This document shows, piece by piece, positions 1,321 to 44,480 of a DNA stretch of 64,000 nucleotides. Numbering within the stretch: position 1 is the first letter of the stretch; the number at the start of each line of letters is the position of its first letter. Position numbers and translations under genes: made by a program. Source of the DNA: Eledone cirrhosa. Its lineage: Eukaryota; Mollusca; Cephalopoda; Octopoda; Eledonidae. Below the pieces are notes generated by a model, which ran no database searches, was not told the DNA's origin, and was given only the letters and a program-made list of their open reading frames with translations. The DNA is taken from contig OZ024744.1 of the NCBI GenBank assembly GCA_964016885.1, forward strand, positions 114,280,674-114,344,673, written 5' to 3'.

Positions 1321-1619
1321 TTAATAAGAGGAATTCCAACTTTGTCTGATTTACTCGTTTTATTTACAATCCTTTAAAATATATATAATGGTATTATAAT
1401 GACAGTCGAGTTTGCAATTTTCAACTGTTGAAAATTGCAAACTCGACTGTCACCACATATCATGAACCTGAAGATTGCGAAAGCATGAAAGTACTTGTTC
1501 AATTAACACTTAGAATTTAATATTCTATCATACTATTTCATTATAATACCATTATATATATTTTAAAGGATTGTAAATAAAACGAGTAAATCAGACAAAG
1601 TTGGAATTCCTCTTATTAA
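1321..1619. mobile_element. Fold-back element, PLE terminal-repeat type, 82-bp perfect arms
   Basis: The arms 1321-1402 and 1538-1619 are perfect reverse complements over 82 bp. Directly inside the left arm sits a second perfect palindrome, 1401-1425 against 1427-1451. A hammerhead ribozyme candidate lies between the inner palindrome and the right arm on the plus strand. The left arm joins the inner palindrome with no matching ribozyme, so the mirrored copy was probably deleted. I call it a PLE pseudo-LTR because it shares the ribozyme type with the coding PLEs in this window. Perfect arms suggest a young palindrome. Confidence 0.75.
1463..1501 (+). ncRNA. Hammerhead ribozyme candidate H1 (minimal, GNRA-capped helix II)
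   Basis: Core CTGAAGA is at 1468-1474 and GAA at 1487-1489. Helix I pairs TGAAC (1463-1467) with GTTCA (1497-1501). Helix II is TGC/GCA (1476-1478, 1483-1485) capped by a GAAA tetraloop. Helix III is AG/CT (1490-1491, 1494-1495) with loop TA. Predicted cleavage falls after T1496. Known for the family: short-helix-III, type I hammerheads occur in PLE terminal repeats. Activity here is inferred from fold only. Confidence 0.8.
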
Positions 1620-1662
1620 TATAATCTTCTATACACAATCATACACACCTGTGTATATTTAC

Positions 1663-1734
1663 CTATATATATCTATCTATATATATATATATATATATAT
1701 ATATATATATATATATATATATATATATATATGT
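1663..1734. repeat. (TA)n microsatellite
   Basis: Long TA run separating two terminal-repeat elements. Confidence 0.95.
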
Positions 1735-1737
1735 ATA

Positions 1738-2036
1738 CAATGATATTAAATAAATGGAAACTATATTTATAAAACCATATTTATTTTATTATATATATTT
1801 CAAGGGTACCAAGACACATTGGTACGCTTTCATCAGATAAAATACAAAGTTTGTTTTATAAATAGAGACATACCCATGAAAATCATACCTTATCAGTTGG
1901 AAATTCACTGGATAATTAATATCATTGAATATTTATATAATATCATTGAATATTTACTCCAGTAATTTGTTGAGTGCTCTAAATCAGTTATAAACATTTA
2001 TATTTGTTGGACTTCCAACAAATTAAATACCCCTTC
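1738..2036 (-). mobile_element. PLE terminal repeat, family 2 (partial palindrome)
   Basis: Minus-strand arm holds a hammerhead followed by the conserved tail that reads through TAAATATGGTTTTATAAATA to TTTCCATTTATTTAATATCA. On the plus strand only the distal part of the opposite arm remains (about 1915-2036, with TTGAGTGCTCTAAATCAG). Its ribozyme part is missing. The same family recurs at 12046 and 35840. Confidence 0.75.
1782..1844 (-). ncRNA. Hammerhead ribozyme candidate H2
   Basis: On the minus strand CTGATGA is 1836-1830. Helix I is 8 perfect pairs, TATTTTAT (1844-1837) with ATAAAATA (1789-1782). Helix II (1829-1802) pairs 10 of 11 positions, with a C·C mismatch at the fourth. GAA is 1801-1799. 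Helix III is the self-complementary ATATATAT (1798-1791). Cleavage is predicted between 1790 and 1789. Confidence 0.85.
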
Positions 2037-2040
2037 TACT

Positions 2041-2060
2041 TATATATATATATATATATA
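2041..2060. repeat. (TA)n microsatellite
   Basis: Short TA tract at the left border of the next palindrome. Confidence 0.9.
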
Positions 2061-2209
2061 TTGTTATACTTTGGGAGGGTCATGTTGCCAATAAGAAACA
2101 CACGCACCAGTTGCTTTCACTCCAATTTATTATAAATTAAATTTATAAATTTAGGAATTTATAAATTTCCGGCTGGTTGGTTCCACAACCAGACGATTGT
2201 TCATATATT

Positions 2210-41705: not shown

Positions 41706-41894
41706 AATATATATATATATATATATATATATATATATATATATATATATATATATAGAGAGAGAGAGAGAGAGAGAGAGAGAGAGAGAGATACATATAT
41801 GTCTATATGTATATGTATGTATATATATATATATAATATATACATATATATGTATACATATATATAATCATATATATATAAATATATATATATA
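41706..41894. repeat. (TA)n(GA)n and TA/TG microsatellites
   Basis: TA run, GA run (41757-41790), then mixed TATATG to 41894, abutting a LINE 3' end. Confidence 0.95.
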
Positions 41895-42558
41895 GGGCGG
41901 GTAAAATTCTCGAGATCCATGGACGACTTCTCTCCAGCGGTCTCTGTCCCTCATCATTGCTGCCATGTCCTGTGTCTCCAAGAGACCAGTGTCTGTCCTT
42001 AGGGCATCAACATATGTCAATCTTGGTCTCCCTCTTCCAGTGTGTCCATGCAGGGGCTCCCACAGGAGCATTGAGTGCAGTGCCAACTCTTGATGTCGGT
42101 GAGCATGTCCAGCTAACCTCAGTCTCATCTGTGCTACATTTGAGCTGACTTTTGGGATACTCCCATACAGCTCTGAGTCCTTCATCCTCAGTGTATACTG
42201 ATTAATGTTCAGAGCCATCCTCAGCATTCTCGTGTAGCACCCATCCACCATCTGAGTGAGTTTCTTGGTCAGTGTCCAAGTCTCAGACCCGTACAGCAGC
42301 ACAGACTCCATTGCAGCAATGAAGAGACAGATCTTCAGGTCTTATGAAGGTCCGACTTCCACACCAGTCTCAAGCTGTGGCATGCCGCCCAGGCTTTGCT
42401 CTTCCTCTCGACCACATCATCTCTGTATTCCCAATCTTTGCTCCGAAATACAGGAAGTCCTCAACCAATTCTAGCGGCTTCCCGCCTACATCATTAGTAA
42501 TCTTCTCTGGCTTCTCAATATTCTCTACCAGATATTTCGTCTTAATCTCATTCATTCA
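41895..42558 (-). mobile_element. LINE family 2 (RTE-like), C-terminal part
   Basis: Minus strand from NEIKTKYLVENIEKPEKI through ELVEDFLYFGAKIGNTE, then ESVLLYGSETWTLTKKLTQM, LYGSIPKVSSNVAQMRLRLA, TGRGRPRLTYVDALRTDTG and [13 protein letters not shown]. This is the C-terminal tail of an RTE-like non-LTR element: a cysteine-free tail with GRPR and W-R motifs. A frameshift near 42370 splits it. It is the direct half of an inverted insertion; the other half is 42561-42893. Confidence 0.85.
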
Positions 42559-42560
42559 CC

Positions 42561-42893
42561 AACAGCAAAGCCCAAGTCATTACACTTGATGGGATGACAG
42601 AGTTCTTTGAGATACTGGCTGGAGTGCGCCTGGAAGATACATTGACTCCCTACCTTTTTATCATCGCAGTGGACTATTGTATGCACCTTGTGCTGGAAAA
42701 ACACCAGGAATCTGGCTTTACTGTAACACTGGCTCAGAGCAGGAGAGTTAAGGCGAAAAAGATATCAGATGCTGAATTTGCTGACGACATATTTCTGGTG
42801 ACAAACACAGTGAAGGAGGCAGAGGATTTGATGCAAGAGGTGGAGACTGTGTCGATGGGCTGAGAATGAATGAGATTAAGACGAAGTATATAT
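42561..42893 (+). mobile_element. LINE family 2, inverted RT part
   Basis: Plus strand: KAQVITLDGMTEFFEILAGV, LTPYLFIIAVDYCMHLVLEK and AEFADDIFLVTNTVKEAEDL, with the catalytic FADD box. It ends RMNEIKTKY, the same residues with which the minus-strand half begins. Opposite orientation with a shared junction segment is the mark of a 5' inversion on insertion. Confidence 0.87.
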
Positions 42894-42904
42894 ATATATA
42901 TAAT

Positions 42905-43021
42905 GATAATAATTGTTTCTACTTTTGGCACAAAGCCAGCAATTACCCAGTACATTACTGGTACTTCATTTTATCGACCCCGTAAGGATGAAAGGCAAAG
43001 TTAACATCGGCGGGATTTGAA
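42905..43021 (-). mobile_element. tRNA-derived SINE, 3' part
   Basis: The minus strand begins TTCAAATCCCGCCGATGTTA (box B edge) and ends in the TAGAAACAATTATTATCA tail. Same family as 21076 and 24463. 5' truncated at the PLE boundary. Confidence 0.82.
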
Positions 43022-44480
43022 TAAACAAAGACGGTTACTTTAGACCATCCCTATTTATTTTATTATACGTATTTCAAAGATGTATGGCTTATGTATAACA
43101 TCAGTCAATCATGTTCTCTTCAGATAAAGCCCACAGCAGGTGTAAATATCCTTTGATATGCTAGTGGTCAGACGAGTTATTCACTTCAGCGACTGGCCAG
43201 CATATGCCTGGAAAAATGTTAATGTAATAGATAGGAGTGGGGAAAATATTTTACAGTTGGCATTCCTGTTTTGAACTGGCTAGGGTATCAGGTTACCGGA
43301 TTGGTCAATTAGTTCAAAGGAAAGCATGTATTGTTAGTCTATTTTTTCTTTTTATGTTAGATTTATTTCACTTAGATACTATTTCAAATTATTCATAGAT
43401 GTTGAAGTTATAATGTAGCTATATATTAAAGAAATTTTGCATTGCTTATTCCATAGTCTATTTAGCCTTATTTAACTAAACTAGCAGAAAAACCACACTT
43501 CGGGTGGTTTTCTGCTAGAATGTGTAGTGTGTATATTGATATTATACGCAAGTATACATACATGTAGATATGATACATCAAATAAAATCGTAATTGACAA
43601 TATCCACAGAAATTGAACGAAGACTGTGTTACACTGTCTTATGTAATCAGTAACGTAATCCATGATACATTAAAAAAAGACGATATTATATATAAACTGC
43701 ATTAGGCGAAAATTAGTGACAAAAATATATGAATATTTATTTAGCGACCGCTAACCGGAAATGTTGACATTTGAACATTTTAAAGAAGTGAATCTTTAAA
43801 TAAGTAATAAAATATATTTAATGAACAGTCACGAAATTTAGTAGATAAATTATGTAATATTCATTCATTATTTATTCAAAGTAATTCAACTTATTTTACT
43901 AATTTTATAAACCGTACACAGTCCCGCGCTCCTTACTTTATAGTTTAGATACCCTATGAAAAATCTTGGTGAATTTTTGGAGACAAGAACTAAAATTTCC
44001 AAGCGTTTGTTTATGATTTTATGTCTATTTTTTATGATATGGGGAATCTCAGTGGTACAGAGGTCACACCTTTTAGATATAGATGCATTTTCATAAGGAA
44101 AAGCATGAGAAAGTATCTACCAAGAAAGGGAATATTCAATATTATTATTTTTAAGTGACCAAATCAATTCAGAAAGGGTTGTGCTAAATCTTTTATCTTT
44201 TCTTTTGAATGAGTGGCGATGGTTATACCACTTTTCTTTAAATTTAGAAAAAGTTTAATTCCAATGGAGTGTGGTGAATTATACCACAGAATGGAACGGG
44301 ATCGAACCCTCTTATTTAACTTTTTGGTTGTATTTAAGTTATATCCATTCAAAATCTGATTTGTCCTGACACTATTGTTTTGGGTTCGGATGCCAACAAA
44401 ATTACGATAGTCATTAACTGTGTGTATGTTAGTGTTAATATCAATGGTTTGTTTATTTCTACTAATCGCAGGCGAACATC
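43022..44480 (-). mobile_element. Penelope-like element, 3' half: GIY-YIG relic, 3' UTR and terminal repeat
   Basis: Minus strand. 44480-43930 gives NDYRNFVGIRTQ, LKKSGITIATHSKEKIKDLA, then CDLCTTEIPHIIKNRHKIIN and KRLEI, in shifting frames. The layout matches the GIY-YIG end at 34358 (YVG, IWNLK, CKLC, N-R blocks). 43920-43140 is UTR-like. A hammerhead repeat ends it. The matching RT half is at 47426-47756, separated by a LINE that inserted into this element. Confidence 0.72.
43057..43129 (-). ncRNA. Hammerhead ribozyme candidate H20
   Basis: Minus strand: helix I TTTAT (43128-43124) with ATAAA (43063-43059); core CTGAAGA 43123-43117; helix II GAACATG with CATACATCTTT at its base, C·C at position 4, and a large loop; GAA 43075-43073; helix III ATACGTAT (43072-43065). 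Cleavage is predicted between 43064 and 43063. Confidence 0.78.

Follow-up and report, generated by a model that had tools for sequence, protein, structure and literature searches.

Head-to-head pairs of hammerhead-bearing repeats in an Eledone cirrhosa locus, probable remnants of Penelope-like elements

How did a small region of an octopod genome come to hold so many hammerhead ribozyme motifs, and what kind of element carries them? The question is raised by a stretch of 64,000 nucleotides of Eledone cirrhosa (GenBank assembly GCA_964016885.1, contig OZ024744.1, positions 114,280,674 to 114,344,673 of the forward strand), the whole of which is called the window below and to which all positions refer. 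The original prediction, made without database searches, had listed 20 hammerhead candidates between 1463 and 43129 and had placed them in several families of terminal repeats of Penelope-like elements (PLEs), invoking a kind of ribozyme already described; PMC7229834 bears out that PLE hammerheads are published, citing Cervera and de la Pena (2014) for them (papers given by PMC number are drawn on here from excerpts). The analysis favours the reading that the window probably holds the remnants of many insertions of GIY-YIG PLEs, most of them placed head to head, mainly into (TA)n, by target-primed reverse transcription on two strands.

Hammerhead motifs and their background

A hammerhead-like motif lies at all 20 positions, and the predicted number of exact CTGANGA cores, 18, agrees with the motif count, the exceptions being CTGAAGG (11795) and CCGATGA (38334); in the whole window CTGANGA occurs 42 times where 15.9 occurrences are expected. 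Following a self-comparison of the window, the copies were grouped by BLAST and alignment into eight hammerhead-bearing families, A to H (E and F on weaker motifs), and a further family, J, which lacks a complete hammerhead. A structural descriptor, written after the candidates had been read, required a core with at most one mismatch, helix II, GAAA, a helix III of 6 to 13 nt with at least 2 base pairs, a non-G cleavage base and helix I, and was scanned over the 34,797 unmasked bases outside the satellite arrays. At a score of at least 20 it finds 17 sites, all among the 20 listed and none elsewhere in those bases; copies within one family are not independent, and the 17 sites fall in six families (A, B, C, D, G and H). 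By comparison, 200 dinucleotide shuffles in blocks of 500 bases gave a mean of 0.15 such sites and at most 3, the reversed sequence gave none, and a score of at least 28, attained by 12 of the real sites, was reached in 0 of the 200 shuffles. The predicted helices and core are thus recovered by the descriptor for 17 of the 20 candidates and by the covariance model described next for 21555, also below the descriptor threshold, whereas 1463 and 19240 pass neither and are weaker candidates.

Support for the helices as such comes from comparison between families. Between families A and C (five sequences) compensatory changes that keep the pairing occur at 11 of 19 base pairs, and 93.7% of the cells of their alignment pair against a shuffled mean of 75.6%; a measure of further pair types does not exceed the shuffles (13 against 14.9). 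When the 5' and 3' strands of helix I are matched across families A, B, C, D, G and H, own-strand pairing is the best: whichever of six sets of representatives is taken, the true assignment has rank 1 among 720. The caveat is that, of 64 single scores between families, 8 are at least as high as the lowest own score. A covariance model was trained on five copies of A and C only, since in a joint alignment with D, which was dropped, the cores were misaligned; its E-values stand without a run on shuffled sequence. Outside its training set the model recovers 12091-12150, a copy of one training sequence, 21554-21616 (E 9e-12) and 43057-43130 (E 8.5e-8), adds a previously unlisted hammerhead site on the minus strand at 21498-21556 (E 6e-7) and gives only a marginal match at 22252 (E 0.04), while it misses B, E, F, G, H and three of the four D copies. 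Three more matches at E 1 to 8 were judged to be chance.

Folding of 15 motifs in isolation, by minimum energy and centroid, gave a mixed picture: helices I and II are both present in one structure or the other for C, B, D3 and 1463, several others form helix II alone or a rival pairing (12280, 37265), and no hammerhead fold was obtained for 43057, 21555 or 19240. The insert of family C (11475-11892) folds as one long hairpin at -361 kcal/mol, and read-through transcripts of such inserts would be predicted to form long hairpins in which the ribozymes may be masked unless they fold co-transcriptionally. As motifs the hammerheads are genuine; that they cleave themselves is a prediction from their sequence.

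Paired arms, single tails and the route of insertion

The original prediction overlooked that many of these motifs lie in inverted pairs. Fourteen head-to-head pairs were counted, each with a left arm on the minus strand and a right arm on the plus strand whose 5' ends meet centrally (Table 1). Candidates 2210/2674, 11523/11790, 12091/12280, 22167/22252 and 37633/37815 are each the two arms of one insertion, so that the list of 20 represents fewer independent events. The motifs sit in what look like PLE terminal repeats (pLTRs), and the unit would begin with a 5' part, followed by a minimal type I hammerhead and a proximal 3' end point, beyond which an optional tail extends to a distal 3' end point. 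The two end points are discrete, and both recur among independent insertions in families A, D and J. Unpaired copies use either, with a tail in A4 and D3 and none in B3 and G2, the last two being terminated at the proximal point.

Exactly one arm is tailed in 13 of the 14 pairs, a result with P 0.003 when those arms are matched at random. The regularity persists without the possible pair A6/A7 (12 of 13, P 0.006) and in the 11 pairs left when J1 and J2, which were recognised after the rule had been formed and carry their tails on opposite sides, are also removed (P 0.017). The pairs sit mostly at (TA)n tracts, and 20 of 28 outer ends, set by hand in families A to G, lie directly against a run of TA 10 or more bases long, compared with 4.1% of background stretches.

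That these structures are DNA transposons of a fold-back or MITE-like type, or arose as an artefact of assembly, and resemble hammerheads by accident is extremely unlikely. Such an origin would suit inserts that form long hairpins, as that of family C does, and other inverted-repeat elements are present in the window. Against it stand the motif counts relative to shuffles and the covariation, the existence of single-arm copies (A4, D3 and B3), the differences between arms in the tail and often in 5' extent, and an arm identity that spans about 85% to 100% between pairs.

The connection to PLEs is positional for one family. A decayed GIY-YIG endonuclease remnant lies directly upstream of the family B copy B3; its first piece matches PF01541 at E 3.2e-4 and 21.4 bits, under the cut-off of 22.6, and its second piece has no Pfam match. 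An open reading frame (ORF) of 290 amino acids elsewhere in the window has 118 relatives, several with a reverse-transcriptase domain, and the named ones come from Argonauta hians, Octopus vulgaris and Mytilus; more generally, the retroelement ORFs of the window have named relatives in A. hians, O. vulgaris, O. bimaculoides, Mytilus and Hydractinia. PLE coding sequence in the window amounts to ORF ends with GIY-YIG in two places, and no reverse-transcriptase domain was found in the window's own PLE ORF pieces; some relatives of the 290-aa ORF carry both domains. A search of viral contigs for copies gave no PLE relative; a single match was judged to be chance, its contig having no inverted repeat. 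Of the predicted type I hammerheads in several co-resident PLE families, the motifs and the families therefore stand, and the tie to PLEs by position stands for family B; for the families not linked to an ORF a PLE origin is suggested by their anatomy.

That the units are instead metazoan retrozymes, non-autonomous type I hammerhead elements that spread via small circular RNAs, is highly unlikely. Type I hammerheads in short repeats without ORFs would fit, and such elements are described as widespread in animals (PMC7229834). Self-comparison and the repeat arrays, which were not read unit by unit, revealed no tandem array containing the motifs, the arrangement is head to head, a GIY-YIG remnant precedes one family, and it is to PLEs that PMC7229834 attributes the minimal type I variants.

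On the favoured reading a PLE ribonucleoprotein would cut both strands of the target, and each cut 3' end would prime reverse transcription of the element RNA. If one strand started at the distal RNA site and the other at the proximal site, a tailed and an untailed arm would result; each copy would extend 5'-ward until it stopped or reached the 5' end of the RNA, and the two cDNAs would be joined centrally at their 5' ends. Priming of this kind on two strands fits the geometry of the pairs. One tail per pair is what a difference in RNA start site between the strands would produce, and simple fold-back copying would not be expected to leave that pattern. Priming on both strands in vivo, with one start site for each, may accordingly be envisaged, and only tentatively, as a proposal somewhat short of an even chance, is the pattern taken as the footprint of a coupled, asymmetric priming of two strands within one PLE ribonucleoprotein with cDNAs fused head to head. 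By eye, A1L, A2R and A4 (L and R denoting left and right arms) begin at the same TATCC, which suggests a defined 5' end of the RNA, and no consistent direction was seen in the excess length of tailed over untailed arms. Hammerhead-cleaved RNA was also considered as the general template, which would make arms start at the cleavage site, and was rejected as a rule: by eye, among the eight arms without a complete hammerhead (A1R, A5L, A5R, A7R, D2R, EL, G1L and G1R), A5L alone starts within about 3 nt of that site.

A rather unlikely alternative keeps the PLE origin and explains the pairs by self-priming: an antisense transcript, or else the first cDNA, would turn back on itself at the 5' end of the element and serve as its own template, and the second arm would stop at the tail border, for example at a bound protein. 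Self-priming has been suggested for Adineta vaga (PMC3846280), and it would agree with the 53-bp palindrome near the centre of the family E pair and with six pairs that are nearly symmetric, with centres of 2 to 35 nt; such centres are also compatible with two copies that both reached the 5' end of the RNA. Simple fold-back would, in contrast, put a tail in both arms, yet 13 of the 14 pairs are one-tailed. The proximal end point, since it also ends the unpaired B3 and G2, is a possible start site in its own right, and the arms of A1, D2, E and G1 are strongly unequal in length.

Several observations weigh against two-strand insertion of PLEs as the account of this window. The pairs were picked by hand and all come from one window, where the count passed over inverted repeats that have a TA tract at their centre (36072-36162 and 11162-11373) as well as an unclear palindrome (11017-11187); A6 and A7, separated by 4.6 kb that hold other repeats, are a weak point of the count, to be taken as one pair only conditionally. 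G1 breaks the rule with two tails. The tail is on the right, plus-strand arm in 11 of the 13 one-tailed pairs (two-sided P 0.02), a bias that lies outside what the model explains and is perhaps chance. The near symmetry of the six pairs mentioned above is also what fold-back self-priming would be expected to leave, and the families other than B are connected to PLEs through anatomy. In vitro, the protein of the Poseidon PLE of Anolis, PAc, uses the same start sites on both strands (PMC11167929). Finally, the search with the Rfam hammerhead models, which the original prediction had named as its check, turned out negative: the models are silent at gathering and at E<=10, even on stretches of 411 or 91 bases, in a search run without a known PLE hammerhead as positive control.

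Features and other repeats of the window

Table 1. Positions and make-up of the families (letters) and of PLE coding remnants in the window.
Feature	Positions	Strand	Description
E pair	1317..1661		left 1317-1402 (-), no tail, no hammerhead; right ~1403-1661 (+), tail
E right-arm hammerhead candidate	~1463-1503	+	below descriptor threshold; minimum-energy fold has helices I and II
E pair centre	1400-1452		53-bp palindrome; arms identical at 86/86
A1 pair	1734..2041		left 1734-1914 (-), hammerhead 1783-1843, no tail; right ~1916-2041 (+), tail, hammerhead truncated away; arms overlap briefly, so not alignable to each other
B1 pair	2058..2930		left 2058-2445 (-), hammerhead ~2207-2255, no tail; right 2481-2930 (+), hammerhead ~2671-2719, tail
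C pair	11475..11990		left 11475-11678 (-), hammerhead 11521-11579, no tail; right 11689-11990 (+), hammerhead 11788-11846, tail; arms identical at 200/204
A2 pair	12041..12474		left 12041-12209 (-), hammerhead 12091-12150, no tail; right ~12210-12474 (+), hammerhead 12280-12339, tail
J2 pair	12512..12644		left 12512-12620 (-), tail; right 12621-12644 (+), no tail; from alignment with J1; no hammerhead recognised
F copy, unpaired	19225..19335	-	single motif (19240), core CTGAGGA, long helix II; weak candidate, below descriptor threshold, missed by covariance model, minimum-energy fold not hammerhead-like
A3 pair	21440..21756		left 21440-21548 (-), decayed hammerhead 21498-21556, no tail; right 21549-21756 (+), decayed hammerhead 21554-21616, tail
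J1 pair	21776..21955		left 21776-21822 (-), no tail; right 21823-21955 (+), tail; no complete hammerhead
D1 pair	22135..22408		left 22135-22240 (-), hammerhead 22168-22231, no tail; right 22243-22408 (+), hammerhead 22252-22315, tail
D3 single	23507..23666	+	hammerhead 23507-23566, tail
GIY-YIG remnant	29801..30139	+	decayed PLE endonuclease, one stop; directly upstream of B3
B3 copy	30206..30548	+	PLE 3' region and terminal repeat, no tail; decayed hammerhead ~30380 by eye
A4 single	35786..36092	+	hammerhead 35885-35945, tail
A5 pair	36188..36356		left ~36188-36235 (-), no tail; right ~36236-36356 (+), tail; both truncated downstream of hammerhead
G1 pair	36793-37048		left 36793-36994 (-), tail; truncated right 36992-37048 (+), tail
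G2 copy	37262-37412	+	hammerhead 37262-37309, no tail
B2 pair	37477..38067		left 37477-37738 (-), hammerhead ~37630-37678, no tail; right 37751-38067 (+), hammerhead 37812-37860, tail; arms with 258 identical positions, 4 mismatches
H candidate, unpaired	38289..38341	-	single motif (38293), core CCGATGA; descriptor score 28.9; missed by covariance model
D2 pair	39306..39545		left 39306-39489 (-), hammerhead 39398-39470, tail; right 39490-39545 (+), no tail
290-aa ORF	39648..40520	+	5'-truncated PLE polyprotein end with GIY-YIG; PF01541 E 1.7e-7
Possible A6/A7 pair	43020..47916		left A6 43020-43130 (-), hammerhead 43057-43130, no tail; right A7 47730-47916 (+), tail, hammerhead truncated

In addition to the copies of Table 1, fragments resembling family G lie at 24130-24225, 24359-24400 and 24716-24788, one of them interrupted by a repeat, together with a stretch that by eye resembles a degenerate hammerhead. 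In the uncounted inverted repeats at 36072-36162 and 11162-11373 the element ends face each other, unlike the head-to-head pattern. The palindrome at 11017-11187, whose borders are unclear and in which no hammerhead was found, has a left side about 40 bases longer than its right and is perhaps another one-tailed pair.

The window is rich in satellites and microsatellites. A 24-bp satellite with strong G skew occupies 48297-64000 in about 658 copies and reaches the end of the window, and others lie at 5490-9730 (52 bp, 82 copies), 15710-17862 (65 bp, 34 copies) and 24932-28180 (19 bp, 171 copies, extreme G skew). Several broken copies of a single LINE are found at 44586-47400, with related pieces at 1-1000, 9780-10600, 28850-29840, 32560-34360, 38900-39150 and 48000-48290; in the piece at 46365-46922 a PHD finger (PF00628, 24.3 bits, cut-off 24) comes after the end of a reverse transcriptase. 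An inverted repeat of 219 bp, 99% identical and with its halves about 660 bases apart (19835-20928), resembles a terminal-inverted-repeat element. ORF pieces that look mariner-like by eye lie at 18255-19117 between perfect inverted repeats of 35 bp, which are separated by about 790 bases; Pfam finds no transposase in the two pieces tested. A tRNA-like Rfam match on the minus strand at 36695-36758, barely over gathering and within a sequence that recurs at 31790-32044, is probably a tRNA-derived SINE; ARAGORN finds no tRNA there. Many sub-gathering Rfam matches to microRNAs, which fall largely on hairpins and microsatellites, were not accepted as microRNAs.

Comparison with known Penelope-like elements and retrozymes

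The one-tail pattern bears on the route by which PLEs integrate. Should it hold genome-wide, old inverted pLTR pairs would record which RNA start site was used on each target strand, and assemblies that already exist could, with no further work at the bench, discriminate between two-strand priming and self-priming. The window further shows that PLE-type hammerheads, even a dense set of them, can escape the Rfam hammerhead models. A comparison of octopus and bobtail squid lists Penelope as one of the most abundant repeat families (PMC8967140). In the literature covered, mainly titles and the beginnings of abstracts, with subscription papers including Cervera 2014 and Craig 2021 mostly outside its scope, no work was found that joins two-strand priming with inverted pairs or that states a one-tail rule.

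Metazoan retrozymes resemble the units described here in being short, non-coding retroelements with type I hammerheads (PMC7229834), whereas in the window no tandem units were found, helix III is minimal and the copies form inverted pairs. From the published PLE hammerheads, likewise minimal, of type I, with a very short helix III and located in PLE terminal repeats, no difference in kind was seen; what sets the window apart is that many families lie side by side, mostly as inverted pairs without ORFs, and are missed by Rfam.

The Penelope elements of Adineta vaga (Arkhipova and co-workers 2013, PMC3846280) share with those of the window AT-rich targets, palindromes at inverted junctions, DNA captured between pLTRs, and pLTRs arranged head to head, one of which may carry a tail. 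Pairs in A. vaga usually bound an ORF, whereas the pairs here mostly do not, and hammerheads have no occurrence in the text of that paper.

For the Anolis element (Frangieh et al. 2024, PMC11167929), the purified PAc protein is reported to cut both strands of its target in vitro and to extend each of them, with a preference for AT-rich DNA. Reverse transcription begins at two sites inside the RNA, which delimit the known tail; the hammerhead of the element is assisted by the protein, and mutating this ribozyme leaves insertion in vitro unaffected. Both systems thus have a hammerhead beside the RNA start region, targets rich in AT and a tail delimited by two 3' end points; extension on both strands, seen there in vitro, would be a further shared feature. 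They differ in that tailed and untailed ends co-occur in 13 of 14 pairs in the window as against shared start sites on the two strands in Anolis, and in tail length, about 80 to 100 bp by hand-set borders in families A, C and J compared with 30 to 40 there. Taken together, PLE hammerheads, inverted pLTRs and the optional tail were known already, and the window adds a dense sample of this known kind, in which a testable regularity is seen.

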